The position numbers and the translations under genes were made by a program. Below, piece by piece: positions 16,517 through 31,696 of a DNA stretch of 36,197 nucleotides. Source of the stretch: Anaerolineae bacterium (lineage in GTDB: Bacteria; Chloroflexota; Anaerolineae; B4-G1; SLSP01); contig PWVB01000503.1 in assembly GCA_003562365.1 (NCBI GenBank), positions 1 to 36,197 of the forward strand. The letters are read 5' to 3'. The notes under the pieces are model-generated. The model saw nothing but the letters and a program-made list of their open reading frames with translations. It was not told the DNA's origin and did not search any database. Positions within the stretch are counted from its first letter, which is position 1; each line of letters starts with the position of its first letter.

Positions 16517-16825
16517 CTACAGTTTAATCTCGATATCGACACCTGCCGGCATATTGAGGCGCATAAGCGTATCAATCGTCTTCGAATCCGGATCTTGGAT
16601 ATCGATCAGGCGCTTATGGGTACGAATCTCGAAATGCTCGTGCGAATCCTTGTCGATAAACGGTGAGCGGCGAACGGTAAAGCGTTCAATCCTGGTCGGC
16701 AAGGGTACAGGACCCGCGACACGAGCACCAGTCCGCTCTGCAGCTTCAACGATGCGGCGAGCTGACTCATCCAGAATCCGATGATCGTATCCCTTCAACC
16801 GAATGCGAATGCGTTGTTTAGCCAT
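16517..16825 (-). CDS. rpsJ: 30S ribosomal protein S10 (uS10)
   Basis: 102 residues: [66 protein letters not shown] over residues 41-76, ending [12 protein letters not shown]10 also takes part in transcription antitermination as NusE. It follows tuf by 23 bases, so the str and S10 operons are continuous here. Confidence 0.98.
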
Positions 16826-16848: not shown

Positions 16849-18072
16849 CTAGCTTTCGAGGAGCTTAGTGATCACGCCAGCGCCAACAGTCAAGCCACCC
16901 TCCCGGATCGCGAAACGGGAACCGGCCTCAAGGGCCACCGGGCTGATCAGTTCAACGGTCATTGTCGTATTGTCACCCGGCATAACCATCTCCACGCCCT
17001 CAGGCAACGTCACACTGCCGGTGATGTCCATCGTGTTAATGTAGAACTGCGGCTTGTAGCCGGTGAAAAACGGCTTGTGCCGTCCGCCCTCATCCTTACG
17101 AAGCACATAGACCTCAGCCTCGAATTTGCGCTCCGCCTGAATGCTACCAGGTGCCGCTACAACCACACCCCGCCCGACCTCATCCTTACCGACACCACGT
17201 AAGAGCAGTCCAGCATTATCTCCGGCGCGAACAACCTCAAGCACCTTGTGGAACATCTCCATTGAGGTCACCACCGTCTTGCGGGGCTTCTCATACATAT
17301 CGCCCACCAGTTCGACCTCGGTATTGGGCTTCAGCGTGCCGCGCTCGACACGTCCTGTCACCACCGTACCACGGCCCTTGATGGAAAAGACATCCTCAAT
17401 TGGCATTAAGAACGGGCGGTCCTCATCGCGCTCTGGAGTCGGAATGTACTCATCTACGACCCGCATCAGCTCCCAGATCGCCTCGTACGCAGGATCATCA
17501 GGATCCTCGGTCTCGCAGGACAAGGCTTCAAGCGCCGAGCCCTGAACGATAGGTGTCTCATCACCGGGAAATTGGTAGCTGCTCAGCAGCTCACGAATCT
17601 CCAGGTCGACAAGCTCTAGCAGTTCCGGATCATCCATTAAGTCGACCTTGTTCAAAAAGACCACGATCGCCGGAACCTCAACCTGACGCGCCAACAAAAT
17701 GTGCTCACGAGTCTGGGGCATCGGACCGTCCACAGCCGAGACAACCAGAATCGCACCATCCATCTGCGCCGCGCCCGTGATCATGTTTTTGATATAATCG
17801 CGATGACCCGGACAATCCACGTGCGCATAATGTCGATTCTCCGTCTCGTACTCAACGTGTGAGATCGCGACAGTCAGAATCTTGGTCGCGTCACGACGGA
17901 ACATCTTGGCGTCAGCCTTAGCAACTTCATCGTAACCCTTGAAACTCGCCCACCCCCTGGTGGCCAGCGTCCGCGTGATCGCCGCGGTCAGAGTCGTCTT
18001 ACCATGGTCGATATGACCGATGGTGCCGACATTTACATGTGGCTTCGTGCGCTCAAAAACCTCTTTAGCCAT
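16849..18072 (-). CDS. tuf: Elongation factor Tu with an unusual switch I
   Basis: 407 residues. GTPase motifs: GHIDHGKT (19-26), DCPGH (86-90), NKVD (141-144) and GSA (178-180); domains 2 and 3 follow, with [28 protein letters not shown]-Tu delivers aminoacyl-tRNA to the ribosome. The switch I segment, nearly always RGITI before HVEY, reads [13 protein letters not shown] (63-75): the Mg-binding Thr (67) is kept but Arg-Gly is replaced by Lys-Ile. DCPGHRDY replaces the common DCPGHADY. AAGGAG lies nine bases before ATG. The 140 bases up to fusA hold only a small CTGCA-CGAA-TGCAG hairpin (18180-18167). Confidence 0.95.
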
Positions 18073-18212: not shown

Positions 18213-20276
18213 CTACACGATAGCATCCATTTGCCGGGAATCCACCGGTTCATAGTGGTGGAACTCCATTGTGAACGTACCACGTCCCTGCGTCATACTT
18301 CGCAGATCGGTAGCATACCCAAACATCTGCGCCAACGGCACAAAAGCCCGAACCGCCTGACCAGCACCCGGACGGGGCGCCATTGACTTGATGTCCGCAC
18401 CACGGGCGTTTAGATCGCCCAACACCTCACCAACAAATCCTTCCGGCATCACCACTTCTACGCTCATCAAAGGTTCCAGCAGAACCGGCTCTGCCGATTC
18501 GATGGCCCGCCGGAAGGCCTGCGCAGCAGCAGCTCGAAACGCCATCTCAGTAGACAGTGCCTCGTCGGCCCTAGCGTCCAGAAGACGGACCTCAATCCCC
18601 ACCAAAGGATACCCAGCCAAGAAACCACTGTCCAACGACTCAAGCGCCCCAGCTCTGATCGCCTCAACATACTCCGGCGCCAGGTCCTGCGGACGCAGTT
18701 GACTCGCAAATTCCGACGCTTCCCCTACATCAGCCGGGCTGACTTCCAACACAACCCGCGCATATTGAGGTTTACCGGCCAGCATACGGTCGAATACCAC
18801 TTCTGCCCGACCAGTTTGCGTCACGGTCTCCTTATAGGCTACCCTCGGCTTCCCAACATTAGCTGCTACCCGGAACTCCCGCAGCATCCGATCCACAAGA
18901 ATCTCTAGATGCAGCTCCCCCATCCCGGAGAGAATTGTCTGTCCCGTGGCCTCATCCAGCCGAACCCGAAAGGTCGGATCCTCCTCAGCCAAATGCTCCA
19001 GTGCCTCATTTAAGCGTTCTTGATCCGCGACAGTCTTGGGCTCCACCGCAACCGAAATCACTGGCTCGGGAAAGCGGATAGCCTCAAGGACGATCGGCGC
19101 GTGCATCGCTGAGAGTGTATCGCCTGTGATGGTGCTTTTTAAGCCAACTGTCGCACCGATGTCACCAGCCTGCAACTCCTCTACCTCCTCGCGGCGATCA
19201 GCGAACATCCTCAACAGTTTCGGGACACGCTCACGGGTCTGCTTCCCAGGATTGAGGTAGACATTGCCGCGTTTCAGGCAACCGGAATAGACTCGCAGAT
19301 AAGCCAACCTTCCTGCATAAGGATCCGTAGCTATTTTAAAGATCAGAGCTGCAAGCGGAGCCGATGGATCCGCAGGCCGTTCCTCGATCTGCCCGTTCTT
19401 TGGGTGCTCTCCCTTCACTGGCGGAATCTCCACCGGCGAAGGCAGCAGATCTACCACGGCGTCCAGCAGAGACTGTATCCCCTTATTGCGCAAGGAGGAG
19501 CCACACAGCACCGGCTGTATCTGACCCGCGATTGTTGCCTTACGCAACGCACTGCGCAGATCATTGGACGGGATCTCCTCACCTTCCAGATAACGAAGCA
19601 TCAACGCATCATCTGTCTCCACGATTGACTCCACCATCGCCTGGCGAGCATCTTGCACAATCGGGAGCAGCGTATCAGGGACCGGCACAAAATCCGGTTG
19701 CCGTCCCAGATCGTCGGACCAGACAACGCCTCGCCACTCAATCAGATCAACAACACCCTGAAACGTTGACTCAGCCCCGATAGGCCATTGAATGGGCACC
19801 GGATTTGCTTTGAGACGATCGTGGATTGTCTCCACGGCGTGAGCAAAATCTGCCCCCAGTTTGTCCATCTTATTCACAAAAGCGATCAGCGGAACACTGA
19901 AGTCCTGGGCTTGGCGCCACACCGTTTCAGACTGCGGCTCCACACCAGCGGTGCCGTCAAAAACCACAATCCCACCGTCCAGAACCCGCAAGCTGCGCTG
20001 CACTTCGGCGGTGAAGTCGATGTGGCCCGGCGTATCAACGATGTTGATCTGACAGCGGCGCCAGAAACAAGTGACCGCAGCGGAGGTGATGGTGATGCCG
20101 CGCTCGCGCTCCTGCGCCATCCAGTCGGTAATCGTGGTACCTTCATCCACATTACCAAGCCGATGGGTCCGCCCGGTGTAGAACAGAATGCGCTCGGTCG
20201 TCGTTGTCTTGCCCGCATCAATGTGGGCAATGATGCCGATATTGCGTATATTCTCGAGTAAATGTGCTTCGGCCAT
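18213..20276 (-). CDS. fusA: Elongation factor G, divergent domain IV
   Basis: 687 residues, normal length. EF-G drives tRNA-mRNA translocation and, with RRF, ribosome recycling. The G domain is standard: [13 protein letters not shown] (17-29), RGITI (59-63), DTPGH (81-85), NKMD (135-138). Domain V ends [21 protein letters not shown]. Domain IV is atypical: the usual GG(R/S)GQ(Y/F) is LAGKPQY (499-505), and the tip loop GSYHEVDSSEMAF is [13 protein letters not shown] (568-580), so the tip His is missing. It may be an EF-G2-like protein occupying the fusA position of the str operon. No other EF-G is in the window. Confidence 0.93.
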
Positions 20277-20350: not shown

Positions 20351-20821
20351 CTACCAGCGCAGATGCGCAAACGCGCGGTTGGCCTCAGCCATCCTTAGCG
20401 TATCTTCGCGCCGCTTGACTGCAGCTCCCACTCCATTTGAGGCATCTACCAGTTCCGCGGCCAGCTTCGCAGCCATCCCACGTCCCGGTCGACTCCGAGC
20501 CGCAGCAAGAATCCACCGAATTGCCAAAGAGGACTGCCGGTACTCAGGCACCTCAACAGGAATCTGGTACGTTGCGCCCCCGACACGGCGTGGTTTCACC
20601 TCAACCGGTGGCATGACATTTCGCATGGCCTCATTGAACACCTCAAGCCCCGGCTTATTCGCCCGCGCCTCAGCAGTGTCCAACGCATCATACATAATCC
20701 GCTGCACGATACTCTGGTTACCACCCCGCATCATGCGGTTGATAAACTTCTGCACCGACACACTGCCGTAGCGGATGTCGGGCTCGATCTCGCGCTTAGG
20801 TGGACGGTTTCGTCTAGGCAT
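20351..20821 (-). CDS. rpsG: 30S ribosomal protein S7 (uS7)
   Basis: 156 residues: MPRRNRPPKREIEPD, VQKFINRMMRGGNQSIVQRIMYDAL, NVMPPVEVKPRRVGGATYQIPVEV and RWILAAARSRPGRGMAAKLAAELVDA. S7 nucleates head assembly and contacts the E-site tRNA. It lies 23 bases after rpsL and 74 before fusA. Confidence 0.98.
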   Translation of the reverse strand: MPRRNRPPKREIEPDIRYGSVSVQKFINRMMRGGNQSIVQRIMYDALDTAEARANKPGLEVFNEAMRNVMPPVEVKPRRVGGATYQIPVEVPEYRQSSLAIRWILAAARSRPGRGMAAKLAAELVDASNGVGAAVKRREDTLRMAEANRAFAHLRW

Positions 20822-20844: not shown

Positions 20845-21261
20845 CTACTCGGCCTTCGTACCATATTTGGAACGCTGTTGGCCGCGGCCCTGAACGCCAG
20901 CGCAATCTAGTGCGCCACGCACAATATGATAGCGGACACCGGGCAAATCCCTGACGCGCCCACCCCGCACCAATACCACCGAGTGCTCCTGGAGATTGTG
21001 CCCCTCTCCGGGAATGTACGCCGTCACCTCGATTCGATTGGAAAGTCGAACCCGTGCAATCTTTCGCAACGCAGAGTTAGGCTTCTTTGGCGTTGTGGTG
21101 CGCACGATCGTGCAAACACCACGCTTCTGAGGGTTGCCCTCTGGAACACGTGAGCGCCGGCCGCCCTTTTGCGTATTGACATTGTAAGCTAGCGCCGGGG
21201 ACGCCGACTTCTCCGGCTTCGACTTGCGCCCCTTACGCACCAACTGATTAATTGTCGGCAC
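20845..21261 (-). CDS. rpsL: 30S ribosomal protein S12 (uS12), Arg at the K88 position
   Basis: 138 residues. [19 protein letters not shown] is followed by an insertion (about residues 24-44, [18 protein letters not shown]) compared with E. coli. The decoding motif [10 protein letters not shown] keeps the Lys equal to K43 (residue 60). At the K88 position the gene encodes Arg104 (codon AGG) in [10 protein letters not shown], with the neighbouring Asp retained. K88R is a known streptomycin-resistance change in other bacteria. AGGAGGAAAA lies before the ATG; a strong promoter lies about 175 bases upstream. Confidence 0.97.
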
Positions 21262-21332
21262 TTTTTCCTCCTAGACTCTCTTATTCCTCTAGAGGCCACC
21301 CCTGGAGCAGCAACCTCTTGTAGATTCCCACT

Positions 21333-21366
21333 GAAGAAGGCCATCTGCGACTGCGATGGCCTCTTC
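21333..21366 (-). promoter_or_regulatory. Hairpin in the str-operon leader
   Basis: On the minus strand GAAGAGGCCATC (21366-21355) pairs with GATGGCCTTCTTC (21345-21333) apart from one bulged base, around a 9-base loop. It is in the transcribed leader between the promoter at 21435-21462 and rpsL. No T-run follows, so it is not an intrinsic terminator; ribosomal protein control or RNA stability are options. Confidence 0.5.
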
Positions 21367-21434
21367 CTTGTCGACAGTGTAACGTTCACCTTGTGATGGC
21401 AGGGGTTATTGCTACCATCCTTATGCAAATGAGA

Positions 21435-21462
21435 AGTATACCATAAGGGTTGGAAAGGTCAA
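21435..21462 (-). promoter_or_regulatory. Sigma-70-type promoter for rpsL and the cluster
   Basis: The minus strand has TTGACC (21462-21457), a 16-base spacer, and TATACT (21440-21435), with an extended -10 TG. It is 37 bases after the rpoB stop and would give an rpsL leader of about 165 bases. Confidence 0.75.
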
Positions 21463-21499
21463 CTGCACCAAATGCAAACCGATCCCCCCTTCGCTACCA

Positions 21500-25505: not shown

Positions 25506-25533
25506 ATTATACCATGGCCCAGGTCTCCGTCAA
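25506..25533 (-). promoter_or_regulatory. Strong sigma-70-type promoter of rpoB
   Basis: The minus strand reads TTGACG (25533-25528), 16 bases, then TATAAT (25511-25506), preceded by TG one base upstream. It is the best promoter match in the window and lies about 100 bases before the rpoB ATG. The -10 neighbourhood ATGGTATA is shared with the rpsL and rpmJ promoters. Confidence 0.8.
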
Positions 25534-25998: not shown

Positions 25999-27228
25999 AT
26001 GAGACAAACACAAAGAAATCGAAAAGATGCCTACTATATCCTCCTCCTGACCCTGTTGCTCCTGCTACCAGCGACCGTCGCTTGCATACCGCTGGCTGCG
26101 CAGCCTCCTGATGTGGCGCAGCCTTTGGAGGCCACGGAGCAACTGCAGACGATAACGCGCGAGCTGAGGTCTGCCATTGTACTAGACAGCAACGGAGAAA
26201 TGCCTGTGACGCAGACAGCGTCTACCTCTGCGGCAGCAGCAGCGCAGGTAGATCTGCAAGAGACACTGACCCACCTCTATCGACAGGCGAATCCCTCAGT
26301 CGTGTACATCCTCGTAACCTCCGGCGGACCGCTCTCTACGCTCAGCGGTCGTGGCAGCGGCAGCGGCTTCATCTACAGTGAGGAAGGCTATATCGTCACC
26401 AATAACCACGTCGTGGACTCTGGTGCGCAGTATGAAATTGTCTTCTTCAATGGCGATCGCCAGCGGGCTCAGCTGCTGGGCGCCGATCCTGACAGCGACC
26501 TGGCAGTGTTGCAAGTCGACGCGCTGCCGACGGGCGTGGCAGCTTTGCCTCTGGCCGATGGGTCAGCGATTGAGGTCGGTCAATTCGCAGTCGCCATTGG
26601 TAACCCCTTCGGGGAGCAGGGCTCGATGTCTTTGGGCATCATCAGTGGCCTGGGACGCAGCCTACCATCGCAAAGAACCACGGGCGTCGGCAGCACCTAC
26701 TCACTGCCGCAGGTCATCCAGACCGACGCGCCGATTAATCCCGGCAACTCCGGTGGACCGTTGCTCAATTTGAGCGGCGAGGTGATCGGCGTCAACGCCG
26801 CTATCGCCACCGCAACGGGCACCAACTCTGGCGTGGGCTTCTCGATCCCGGTAGACGTCGTCAGGCGGGTCGTGCCAAGCCTGCTTGAGACCGGCGAGTT
26901 TCGTTATCCCTATATGGGTCTAACCTTCGCCGGCGAGATCACACTGGACGCACAGGAGGTCTACGGCCTCTCACAGACTCAGGGTGCCTATATCCTCAAT
27001 GTGATGCCAGGCAGCCCCGCGGAGCAGGCCGGCCTGATCGCCGCGAACGCTCAAACCGGACAAGGCGGCGATCTGGTCATCGAGATCGACAGCCAACCAA
27101 TTCGTGACTTCTCGGACCTCAACACCTACCTGGTCCTTGAGGCAGAGGTCGGGCAGACGATCGAGATGACCGTATTGCGCAGCGATACAATCCTAACGCT
27201 ACCACTCACCCTCGGCATGCGGCCCTAA
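25999..27228 (+). CDS. HtrA/DegP-type serine protease with one PDZ domain
   Basis: 409 residues. An N-terminal hydrophobic segment (13-28) ends in Thr-Val-Ala-Cys29, close to a lipobox, so it is either a lipoprotein or anchored/secreted. After a low-complexity linker comes the trypsin-like domain: catalytic His137 in NNHVV, Asp167 in DSDLAVL, Ser251 in NPGNSGGPL. A PDZ domain (about 305-405) contains AYILNVMPGSPAEQAGL and GDLVIEIDSQPI. Such proteases degrade or process misfolded envelope proteins. AAAGGG lies upstream. It converges on the repeat-protein gene and no clear T-rich terminator separates them. Confidence 0.93.
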   Translation: MRQTQRNRKDAYYILLLTLLLLLPATVACIPLAAQPPDVAQPLEATEQLQTITRELRSAIVLDSNGEMPVTQTASTSAAAAAQVDLQETLTHLYRQANPSVVYILVTSGGPLSTLSGRGSGSGFIYSEEGYIVTNNHVVDSGAQYEIVFFNGDRQRAQLLGADPDSDLAVLQVDALPTGVAALPLADGSAIEVGQFAVAIGNPFGEQGSMSLGIISGLGRSLPSQRTTGVGSTYSLPQVIQTDAPINPGNSGGPLLNLSGEVIGVNAAIATATGTNSGVGFSIPVDVVRRVVPSLLETGEFRYPYMGLTFAGEITLDAQEVYGLSQTQGAYILNVMPGSPAEQAGLIAANAQTGQGGDLVIEIDSQPIRDFSDLNTYLVLEAEVGQTIEMTVLRSDTILTLPLTLGMRP

Positions 27229-28084: not shown

Positions 28085-31000
28085 TCAAACCACGTCCTTA
28101 CGCTTCTGAAAGACGATAACTGCGCCAAGCAGCACGGCGTCGATAATGCCCATAAAGAACCAAGCCCCAGTGACGCTGGTACCATAGATGAAGCTGAACT
28201 TCTCCCAATAGCTTTTCAGCATCCCCTCAGCTCCACTGATGGCACGTTGTCGATCCTCTTGCGAATCCTGGTAAACGCCCAGCGCGTCCTCCCAAAGATT
28301 CATCTCCTCCTGCCACTCATCCATACACGCCTCCATCTCGCTTCCGGAGGCAGTAGCCTGGGCGCTGCAGCTATTCAGCCCATCGCACGCATCGCTCAGG
28401 CCGACCCATAGGTCCCTAAGGCCCGTCTCACATTGGGCAAGCCCATCCTGGTGACCCACCAGGGCCTGACGGAAGGCCTCACACTGTTGGATCGTCGTCT
28501 GGAAGTTCTGCTGCGAGCACGGAGAGGCCGGGTCGAAGGGAAGCGGCTCATGTTGGCTTGGTACGGGCTTCGGCGGGACCTCACACACCACATCGGGAGT
28601 CGTAGAGACCTCAAAGCAGGCCTCAGGGCTGGGCATATCAGGGGCCACGGGAGCATCGACAACGGCGCCCCACGGCACGGATTGCTGAATCCGAGCAATG
28701 ATGCCCTCCTCCAGCCCTTGGTTGCTGCGATAAGCTACGTCCTCAAAGGTGCGCCCCTCGGGTTTGTCCAGCCCGAAGAACTCAGGATTCAGGATACCGG
28801 GGAAGTCAGCACACAGTGTGAACGCATTGGGACCCATACAAGCACAGGCTACTACCTTCTCGTCATTAGAGGCCTGGAGCCAACTGTGCCAGCCGCGCTC
28901 TGAATGGTCGAGGGTGCGCTCCGGAGGCCAGCAAACATCATCGACCAGTTGCTCACCAACTCCAGAGAGTCGCACGAAAGCCCCAAAGGCCCAGCGTGTC
29001 GTGGCGACGGCGCTGATGGTGCGTCCGCCAGGGATAAGATCAAGCGGCATCAGCGCACCGGCGAAAAGAAACTGCGGAACCAATACCAGGATTACCAACA
29101 GCAAGGCCACCATCTGGTTGGGAGCTCCCGCGGAGATGGCCAGCCCCATCAGATAACCCGATAGCGAGCCCAGGAATAGGGTGATGAAGATGCCCACCCA
29201 GGCTCCAAAACTCAGCTGCGGCGGCGCAAAGCCAACGAAGAGCCACTTGGTGAACAAGAAGACCACTGCCTGATAGAACGCGAGCGCCAATCCTACCCAG
29301 AGCTTAGAGAGGATATACGGCGTGATCTTCAGCGCAATAGCGCGCTCGCGCTTATAGATATCGATCTCTTTGACGATCTCCCTTACACTGGCCATAGCAC
29401 CCACAAGAATGGAGATCAGGCCGAGCATAAACAGCATCGTGACGATATTGAACGCGTCGCCCAATACAGGGCTGAAAAGCTGTCGTCCCCACATAAAATC
29501 GGCCAGTCCGATGACCGGCGAGAGCGCCAGCATCAGGGCTAAGCTAGCCTTATCCTGAATCATAATATTCAGATTGCGCGCCGAGAGGATAAGAAACTGA
29601 CGGAGAGCCGAGATCCGCTTGACCGGCTTTTGGCGGCGAGCAGCCCTTTCTCCAGCAGCTTGGTCCTCCTGGAGCCGGCCCAGTACATAAGCTTGGTAGG
29701 CCGGCGCGCGGCGGTAGCGCGTATCCCAGTCCTCGGGACTACCCCGCTGCTCGTCTTCCAGGATAGTGTAGATGTCATCAAACTCCATATCCTTGATGCG
29801 CCGCTCGTAGTCCGTACGATATTGATCAAAGTAGACCAGGGCTTCTTCCGGCGGACCAAAGAAGGCCACCCTACCACCGCGGACCAGGATGATCACCTTG
29901 TCACACATCATCACATTCTTGGTCGCGTGCGTGATGAGCAAAATGGTGCGCCCCTGATCCGCCAACTTACGCAGCAGGCGCATCATATTGTACTCGGTAC
30001 CTGGATCGAGCCCGGAGGTCGGCTCGTCCAGGAAGAAGAGACGCGGCTTCGTAAGCAATTCGACACCGATGGAAACACGCTTCAACTGCCCGCCCGACAG
30101 CTTGTGAATGGGCAGATCCTTGCGCTCTTCAAGATCCAGGTCGGTGAGCACCTCGGCGATCCGATGCTGACGCTCCTCAGGGGATGTATCCGCAGGCATG
30201 CGCAGCTGGGCCGCATAGTCAAGGGCCTTGTAGACGGTCAGCTCCGTGTGAACAATGTCCTTCTGCGGAACATACCCCATCTCGTTGCGAAACATATCGA
30301 AATTCTCATAAAGATTGATGCCGTTGGCCAAAACTGTCCCGTGGGTAGCCGGACGGAATCCGTTGATCGCATCCATTAGCGTCGACTTACCGGCGCCCGA
30401 AAGGCCAACCAGCGCTACGAACTCCAGTGGCTGGATGGAGAGCGAGATATCGCGCAGTAAGTTCAGATCCTTCGTGACCCACTTGTTGATCCGCATCACG
30501 TCCAGCTCGACGCCTTCATCGGCGAGCTGTTGAACCTGTCCAGCAGCCAAACGCAGCTTGACCGGTCCGATGTGGATCTCATCACCGTCGCTGAGCCAAG
30601 CCTCACCCTCGATCCGCTGGCCGTTGACGAAAACGCCATTGCTGCTCTTGAGGTCCTTGATCCGGCGACGGGTCCCCAAACGCTCGATCAACGCATGATA
30701 GCGGCTGACCCGGGGGTGATCGAGTGTGATAGCGTTGTCGCGCGCCCGTCCGATGGTTATGGACTCCTGCGTTTCCATAGACAGCATGCGCGTGACCCCT
30801 GACGGACGTGCCTGCTCACCCGGTACACTGGAAGAGGCGGCAGATGGCCCAACAGAACGAAAGACCACCGGCGGCGCGGGGCGCACGCTGACTTGCATCG
30901 GCGCGGTTGCTGGTGCAGGCCCGGGTGGTGTCACGGGTCGCACCGTGAAGGCGAACTCATGTAACTGTACGAGATCCCCGGGCTTTAACAACGCAGCACG

Positions 31001-31651
31001 GCGTGGTGCCAGGGGCTGCTCATTGAGGCGCGTGCCGTTGAGCGACCCCAGATCCATCACCACAACTTCTCCAGCCTCATCAATGGTGAGCGAGAGGTGG
31101 TGACTGGAAACCATAGGACTCTCAAGAATCACATCGTTGTCGGCGGCGCGCCCCACGGCGATCTCACGCGTGAGCAACGGATGTTCGCCTCGCTCTCCGG
31201 TTCTCAGGGTGACCTGCAGCACCCCATAAACGGACCGGGCATCTCGCGGTGCCGATCGCTGTAAACCTGGAGGCGGTGGCGCGGCGACCTGGTCCCCAAG
31301 CGTCTGAGGTTGCCTCACAGGCTGCTCTGGAGACGGGGATTGAGCCGCCGGGCCCGGCGCCAGAGTCACATGACACTGTCCTAGACGCAGCGTATCGCCC
31401 AGAACGAGGTTACGAGCTGCCCGCGGCGGCAAACGCTCTCCATTGAGGAACGTGCCGTTGGTTGAGTCAAGATCGATGATCCGATATCCCTCAGCCGTAA
31501 TGACCAACCGCGCGTGGTGTCCCGAGACCATTGCATCAGGCAGGACGATGTCGTTATCCGGGGCGCGCCCCAGGTTGATCTGGGGCTTGGTTGCAGTAAA
31601 GACCCGACTGCCCCTGGCCGTCTGCACATGCAGCACCAACTGTGCGTTCAT
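28085..31651 (-). CDS. ABC-2 type transporter with three N-terminal FHA domains
   Basis: About 1188 residues (ATG 31651 preferred, since an ATG three codons earlier is one base from GGGAGG; numbers below count from that earlier ATG). Three FHA domains at about 26-98, 166-238 and 300-370 each keep a G-R, S-x-x-H and N-G signature. The ABC ATPase has GLSGAGKST (419-427), LSGGQ (521-525), LFFLDEP (541-547) and the switch His578. An ABCG-like membrane domain follows, with about five segments in 705-875, then a 260-residue outside loop (900-1160) with 12 cysteines, and a last segment at 1163-1185. FHA domains bind phosphothreonine, so kinase control is likely by inference. Substrate unknown. Cotranscribed with the repeat protein. 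Confidence 0.93.
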   Translation of the reverse strand: MNAQLVLHVQTARGSRVFTATKPQINLGRAPDNDIVLPDAMVSGHHARLVITAEGYRIIDLDSTNGTFLNGERLPPRAARNLVLGDTLRLGQCHVTLAPGPAAQSPSPEQPVRQPQTLGDQVAAPPPPGLQRSAPRDARSVYGVLQVTLRTGERGEHPLLTREIAVGRAADNDVILESPMVSSHHLSLTIDEAGEVVVMDLGSLNGTRLNEQPLAPRRAALLKPGDLVQLHEFAFTVRPVTPPGPAPATAPMQVSVRPAPPVVFRSVGPSAASSSVPGEQARPSGVTRMLSMETQESITIGRARDNAITLDHPRVSRYHALIERLGTRRRIKDLKSSNGVFVNGQRIEGEAWLSDGDEIHIGPVKLRLAAGQVQQLADEGVELDVMRINKWVTKDLNLLRDISLSIQPLEFVALVGLSGAGKSTLMDAINGFRPATHGTVLANGINLYENFDMFRNEMGYVPQKDIVHTELTVYKALDYAAQLRMPADTSPEERQHRIAEVLTDLDLEERKDLPIHKLSGGQLKRVSIGVELLTKPRLFFLDEPTSGLDPGTEYNMMRLLRKLADQGRTILLITHATKNVMMCDKVIILVRGGRVAFFGPPEEALVYFDQYRTDYERRIKDMEFDDIYTILEDEQRGSPEDWDTRYRRAPAYQAYVLGRLQEDQAAGERAARRQKPVKRISALRQFLILSARNLNIMIQDKASLALMLALSPVIGLADFMWGRQLFSPVLGDAFNIVTMLFMLGLISILVGAMASVREIVKEIDIYKRERAIALKITPYILSKLWVGLALAFYQAVVFLFTKWLFVGFAPPQLSFGAWVGIFITLFLGSLSGYLMGLAISAGAPNQMVALLLVILVLVPQFLFAGALMPLDLIPGGRTISAVATTRWAFGAFVRLSGVGEQLVDDVCWPPERTLDHSERGWHSWLQASNDEKVVACACMGPNAFTLCADFPGILNPEFFGLDKPEGRTFEDVAYRSNQGLEEGIIARIQQSVPWGAVVDAPVAPDMPSPEACFEVSTTPDVVCEVPPKPVPSQHEPLPFDPASPCSQQNFQTTIQQCEAFRQALVGHQDGLAQCETGLRDLWVGLSDACDGLNSCSAQATASGSEMEACMDEWQEEMNLWEDALGVYQDSQEDRQRAISGAEGMLKSYWEKFSFIYGTSVTGAWFFMGIIDAVLLGAVIVFQKRKDVV

Positions 31652-31696
31652 AGCAGGCATACCTCCCGCCTCAGGATAAGGTCGATAGACCTAACC

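Follow-up and report, generated by a model that had tools for sequence, protein, structure and literature searches.

In the Anaerolineae genome analysed here, rpoB, the gene for the beta subunit of RNA polymerase, is followed directly by the str operon, and rpoC, which encodes the beta' subunit, lies intact at a separate locus. The junction is shared by 58 of the 96 genomes of the class that were classed, the present one included, and the separate loci have separate conserved promoter-like sites and conserved leader hairpins. In nearly all bacteria rpoB and rpoC lie side by side, an adjacency often explained by a need for equal amounts of beta and beta'. The explanation put forward here, a relocation of rpoC together with separate control by promoters and leaders, is one that we regard as probable when taken as a whole.

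Organization of the rpoB locus

The window, i.e. the whole stretch of 36,197 nucleotides that was analysed, contains rpoB and then, on the same strand and as identified by profile searches, rpsL, rpsG, fusA, tuf and rpsJ (Table 1). That rpoB is not followed by rpoC had been proposed in an earlier reading of the sequence (the original prediction), and this is borne out: rpsL comes next after 238 bases, and rpoC is located on contig C557. The window contains neither a canonical rpoBC operon, with rpoC directly 3' of rpoB on the same strand, nor a fused rpoBC gene, beta and beta' being encoded by open frames of 1300 and 1447 codons on two contigs. The intergenic bases had been said to hold the rpsL promoter and a leader hairpin ahead of the str operon, and a promoter-like site and an inverted repeat are found there. 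The -35 box of the rpsL promoter-like site begins 38 bases past the rpoB stop codon. No terminator was found between rpoB and the rpsL promoter in the window; one is present in some relatives, for example G009 and G010. On the 5' side of rpoB, a TTGAC-N16-TATnnT site was found in 15 of the 18 scored loci of the window's family, no such site being picked for G014, G020 and G023. Elsewhere in the window, positions 28085-31660 of the minus strand encode a 1191-amino acid protein that combines three FHA stretches with an ABC ATPase domain and a membrane domain of the ABC-2 type.

Table 1. Features of the rpoB locus, in positions of the window
Feature	Position	Strand	Evidence or remark
HtrA/DegP-like protease gene, divergent from rpoB	25999..27228	plus	TIGR02037 277 bits (below the cut-off of 416); Trypsin_2 and PDZ domains
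Candidate rpoB promoter, TTGACG-N16-TATAAT, TGG before the -10 box	25506..25533	minus	131 bases 5' of the start codon
rpoB, RNA polymerase beta subunit, 1300 aa	21500..25402	minus	TIGR02013 1511 bits (cut-off 801); Pfam Rpb2 domains
rpoB-rpsL intergenic stretch, 238 bases; position of rpoC in linked relatives	21262..21499	minus	
Candidate rpsL promoter, TTGACC-N16-TATACT, sigma-70-like	21435..21462	minus	TTGAC[C/G]-N16-TAnnnT in 18/18 family loci
rpsL leader hairpin, GGCCATC-N9-GATGGCC (inverted repeat 21339-21361) and outer pairs	21334..21366	minus	
rpsL ribosome-binding site, AGGAGG	21267..21272	minus	AGGAGGA kept in 18/18 family loci
rpsL, ribosomal protein S12	20845..21261	minus	TIGR00981 210.5 bits
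rpsG, ribosomal protein S7	20351..20821	minus	TIGR01029 192.5 bits
fusA, elongation factor G	18213..20276	minus	TIGR00484 895.6 bits
tuf, elongation factor Tu	16849..18072	minus	TIGR00485 646.8 bits
rpsJ, ribosomal protein S10, next same-strand gene past tuf	16517..16825	minus	TIGR01049 148 bits

In other phyla rplJ and rplL often lie upstream of rpoB. In the window rplJ-rplL is not located directly 5' of rpoB, where the divergent HtrA-like gene is found instead; the absence of both genes had been predicted, and they were traced to contig C394 of the same genome, in the order nusG-rplK-rplA-rplJ-rplL. Neither gene is in view in any of the 16 linked genomes of the class (those with rpoC past rpoB) with at least 3 kb of sequence visible upstream of rpoB, and among the 30 rpoB-rpsL genomes for which 3 kb could be viewed on that side, one or the other is seen with rpoB in a single case. 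This one is G063, with nusG-rplKAJL matches near rpoB at its locus L144. Among the named linked loci the figure is 32 of 55, including L015 and L044 of Chloroflexi. Since the linked genomes of the class are also without rplJ or rplL in view, the separation of these genes is probably older than the departure of rpoC and not part of the same event.

Distribution of the junction

Searches for rpoB and rpoC were performed on the window's own genome and 98 relatives, and 95 rpoB regions were fetched; the figures given apply to the matches listed. Of the 96 class genomes that were classed, 58 are rpoB-rpsL, 11 are unlinked in another way, 19 are rpoB-rpoC (G090 being counted here on the strength of its rpoC locus) and in 8 the contig ends early; G008, G018 and G043 fall outside the classing, their rpoB place not being listed or their region not fetched. 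In the 57 other rpoB-rpsL genomes the two matches are separated by 56-449 bases in 56 cases and by 2853 in one. Eight named public loci of the class give five cases of rpoB-rpsL (L003, L004, L005, L007 and L016, of which L007 is probably the same record as the G093 locus, with which it agrees in length and coordinates), three that end early and none with rpoB-rpoC. Where both genes are on one contig, they are about 144 kb apart in G056, 1.1 Mb apart in G207 and 2.7 Mb apart along the contig in G073 (1.7 Mb if circular). This agrees with the earlier claim that the beta and beta' genes are unlinked, as they are by lying on separate contigs here.

The window comes from a draft of 570 contigs, so that an assembly or binning artefact at 21262-21499 had to be considered. 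Its probability is negligible. The sharing of rpoB-rpsL by 57 relatives of the class and five named public contigs excludes an assembly join, rpoB and rpoC are far apart in the three single-contig cases, and the promoter-like site, leader hairpin and ribosome-binding site are kept past rpoB in every one of the 18 family loci. Relatives in which rpoC stands between rpoB and rpsL had been named as an observation that would refute the original prediction, and they do occur (19 of 96); they point to the ancestral order and not to an artefact.

Outside the class, linkage is the rule. A draw of 131 genomes from the phylum yielded rpoB in 128, of which 16 are members of the class, the window's own genome included, and 112 are not. 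All 16 class members have rpoB and rpoC on different contigs or far apart, and 106 of the 112 others are linked, 104 by coordinates and two (G112 and G118) by reading the rpoB end; the remaining six end at or shortly past rpoB (G110, G121, G132, G172, G202 and G223). The 72 named loci from outside the class comprise 67 linked ones, three that end, L080 with a 3.2-kb gap and L079, which lacks rpoC in 2.6 kb downstream. The last of these, a contig of a Spirochaetaceae metagenome-assembled genome, has open frames other than rpoC in the 2.6 kb past rpoB.

The rpsL leader

The GGCCATC..GATGGCC hairpin is found in 18 of 18 family loci, which were not selected for it. By exact stem, it is found in 14 of the 19 rpsL loci of families f2 and f3, against none of 15 linked loci. 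These two sets are the unselected evidence for the stem; in the A1 alignment the seven core pairs are invariant, partly by construction, as its rows were gathered by exact stem match. In the outer pairs, three are changed on both sides, a number reached by 12 of 500 shuffles. Model R2, built on this hairpin, matches the window's own genome with an E-value of 3.9e-17, the own sequence being part of the model, and gives a match at E < 1e-7 in 43 of 48 genomes, including 10 of the 15 outside its alignment. In G006, G007 and G033 the match is on a contig other than that of rpoB, which suggests that the hairpin may travel with rpsL. An Rfam search of the window and of L083 gave no family at the gathering threshold. 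Past the stem the window reads TTCTTC, a weak T-run, and no terminator of this kind was called on the minus strand; relatives vary in this stretch.

Leaders of rpsL with hairpins occur in distant groups and have no common sequence or structure, as described in PMC2965389 (Genome Biol. 2010), in the main text of which a word search for "Chloroflex" gave no hit. Like the attenuators presented there, the leader described here contains a conserved hairpin before the ribosome-binding site; unlike them, it has its own near-invariant stem, GGCCATC/GATGGCC, with the weak T-run.

The rpoC locus and its leader

Among the matches listed, the window's own genome has a single rpoC, intact on contig C557, with its ATG at 28331 and the NADFDGD motif; the contig stops 160 bases past the gene. 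A TTGAC..TATnAT promoter-like site is present 5' of rpoC in 17 of 17 family loci, the automatic site picker having chosen other sites for G000 and G001. It is followed by a leader hairpin, GAAGCGCTGAG..CTCA.GCGCTTC, with a T-run after it in many genomes: TTTTTTG in G010, G012 and G013 and TTTTATTT in the own genome, the run being missing in some others. A hairpin plus T-run between promoter and start codon is the arrangement of an attenuator, and the rpoC leader may be classed as a putative one. Across the window's order, 7 of the 11 pairs of the hairpin are changed on both sides, in 15 cells, a score that none of 500 shuffles equals, although the rows had been pre-selected by fold and start motif, a choice that biases the covariation towards structure.

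Model R1, built on the rpoC leader, finds a match just 5' of rpoC in 42 of 48 genomes. Sixteen genomes lie outside its alignment, two of which (G015 and G019) have no rpoC match among the matches listed; 11 of the other 14 have an R1 match before rpoC, that of G037 only at an E-value of 0.02, and none is found there in G001, G002 and G043. The model also missed G004, which is itself in the alignment. A leader shared by rpoB and rpoC is not claimed: R1 has no match at an E-value of 0.05 on contigs known to hold rpoB in the 48 genomes. Stems of the form GAAGCGG..CCGCTTC, resembling that of the rpoC leader, are present in some rpoB leaders (G005, G006, G014, G020 and G023).

New neighbourhoods of rpoC

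The 66 rpoC loci that were fetched include the second copy of G085 and the linked G090. The genes ftsY and prfB are located 5' of rpoC in 9 of them, while on the 3' side there is an S1-like gene in 5, a gyrA-type gene in 6, a class A penicillin-binding protein (PBP) gene in 7 and an ECF sigma factor gene in 16; these names were taken from one representative each, and S1, Xer and PBP do not reach the cut-off (NCBIfam equivalog or subfamily) set for their best-scoring models. In the 16 fetched family members besides the own genome (L185-L199 and L184), the ECF sigma factor gene lies 105-379 bases past rpoC in all 16, a weak, anti-sigma-like zf-HC2 match follows in 15, and a bactofilin-like gene is also found past rpoC in 14, again named from one representative.

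A possible landing site is seen when G070, with the order ftsY-prfB-xer-rpoC-gyrA, is compared with two linked genomes that have no rpoC at this place: G071 (ftsY-prfB-gyrA) and G048 (ftsY-prfB-ORF-gyrA). Among the 18 linked genomes searched, prfB has a gyrA-type gene no more than 5 kb away only in these two, on which the empty site therefore depends; in the linked G074, G086 and G095 the contig ends at most 0.5 kb past prfB. The RpoC of G070 (L231) is the only one among the 55 rows of the alignment with GADFDGD in place of NADFDGD. The Xer gene, which lies just 5' of rpoC in 8 of the 66 loci (G049, G053, G058, G059, G070, G093, G094 and G096), is a conceivable but unproven agent of the move. 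In these eight, rpoC is 9-185 bases past xer and no convincing leader was found, which indicates that unlinking does not as a rule entail an rpoC leader.

Ancestral order and number of events

In 15 of the 16 linked loci where the contig continues, the order is rpoB-rpoC-rpsL-rpsG-fusA; the exception, G076, has no rpsL in the 3.5 kb past rpoC, and three more linked contigs end. As most linked relatives have this order, rpoC left that site, and its removal from between rpoB and rpsL is the simplest reading. Trees were calculated from 55 rows, leaving out G051, G066, G067, G087, G091, most of the window's order, RpoB rows of 700 amino acids or less and RpoC rows of fewer than 900. All 33 unlinked rows fall into one clade of the RpoC tree (SH-aLRT 99), with 16 linked rows on one side (91) and the two rpoC genes of G085 as a pair (100) next to the unlinked clade. 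In the RpoB tree the labels are mixed, with 6 changes, of which the starred branches force only one; holding the unlinked rows as one clade gives a p-AU of 0.443, and holding them together with G085 gives 0.603 and a likelihood better than that of the free search. FusA, S7 and S12 combined (43 of the 55 rows, those with more than 400 residues) show 7 label changes in the free tree and a p-AU of 0.662 for the unlinked rows and G085 as one clade. With all four proteins and 55 rows there are 5 changes, and the same clade has a p-AU of 0.327, 21 log units worse. A FastTree calculation on the four proteins places linked G074 with unlinked G059 and G094 (0.939) and linked G085 with unlinked G057 and G092 (0.996), a mixing of labels that speaks against a single event. 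Alignments dominated by rpoB are reported in PMC10608941 to mislead in Chloroflexota phylogeny.

One relocation is the best fit and is regarded as the likeliest history, more than one split or a transfer of rpoC being less probable. If rpoC had left the array several times independently within the class, the label changes required by the three free trees would be accounted for, and so would the new neighbourhoods of rpoC, which vary between groups (ECF sigma, PBP, S1, gyrA). We consider this unlikely, given that RpoC of the 33 unlinked genomes forms one clade, that none of the three data sets rejects a single clade and that deep lineages have some of the ftsY-prfB, S1 and gyrA neighbours in common.

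A displacement of the native gene, in which an unlinked rpoC of one source spread by horizontal transfer or derived from an old duplicate and the native linked gene disappeared on several occasions, would explain why linkage divides the RpoC tree cleanly but the labels are mixed in the trees of RpoB and of the four proteins. The genome of G085 would also fit, as it contains two full rpoC genes, 69% identical and both with NADFDGD (L181 and L166, on contigs C1 and C72), one past rpoB and the other beside yvcK-gap. However, these copies are sisters, and grouping the unlinked copy alone with the other unlinked genes gives a p-AU of 0.040, by which an ancestral duplication, tested on the G085 copies, is weakly rejected; within the unlinked clade, moreover, many shallow groups are recovered by both the RpoB and the RpoC tree. 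Displacement is judged quite improbable, and a single relocation is retained. A second rpoC-like match besides the one past rpoB is also present in G164 (C1, a single contig), G114 (C7 and C33) and G118 (C4 and C6). G118 had been a candidate for an unlinked genome outside the class and was rejected, as rpoC starts past its rpoB; its copy on C4 is probably a second rpoC.

Proposed history and control

According to the relocation model, rpoC would have moved out of an rpoB-rpoC-rpsL-rpsG-fusA-tuf array in an ancestor of most of the sampled Anaerolineae-type Chloroflexota, leaving rpoB directly before the str operon as the remnant. Its first new place was probably between prfB, accompanied by a Xer-type recombinase gene, and a gyrA-type topoisomerase gene, and it would have moved again later. 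The move probably took place via a duplicate copy that outlived the original, as genomes with two rpoC genes suggest; the sister relation of the G085 copies and the weak rejection of an ancestral duplication count against this route. In the window's order, the conserved sites are consistent with rpoC being transcribed from a promoter of its own through a leader that contains a terminator-like hairpin, and with rpsL likewise having a separate promoter and a second leader hairpin; both hairpins may act as attenuators. Promoter strength and leader control, in place of one shared mRNA, would then keep beta and beta' matched. A more speculative proposal, to which we give little credence, is that an autoregulatory leader was gained after the departure of rpoC: its hairpin would detect free beta' or RNA polymerase itself and control termination ahead of the gene, so that beta' is matched to beta in this way and no longer by co-expression from a single mRNA.

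Comparison with known arrangements and significance

Departures from the plain rpoB-rpoC arrangement are the cyanobacterial rpoC1/rpoC2 genes and the fused rpoBC of Helicobacter and Wolbachia, in which the parts stay neighbours or are fused; unlike these, the rpoC described here is undivided and far away. Breaks and insertions in the rpoB-str cluster are known, for instance the disconnection of rpoBC from str in Gammaproteobacteria, and rpoBC is treated as one operon in PMC8046335, where a word search of the main text gave no mention of Chloroflexi. As in the cluster described there, rpoB, the str operon and rpsJ are in their usual order here; in contrast to it, the break is inside rpoBC, with rpoC gone and rpoB and str still together. 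The accessible parts of PMC2837039 and PMC3879981 contain nothing on the position of rpoC in Chloroflexota, and no published description of unlinked rpoB and rpoC in this phylum was found in the open-licence literature searched.

The rpoC leader is a candidate for a new regulatory RNA ahead of an RNA polymerase gene, and the split of rpoB and rpoC, as a rare genomic change, can serve as a marker in Chloroflexota phylogeny. The split may also change how beta and beta' are balanced, as the original prediction had stated and as we infer from the sequences. With a large group of bacteria without rpoB-rpoC adjacency and with linked relatives at hand, the explanation of this adjacency by a need for equal amounts becomes testable.
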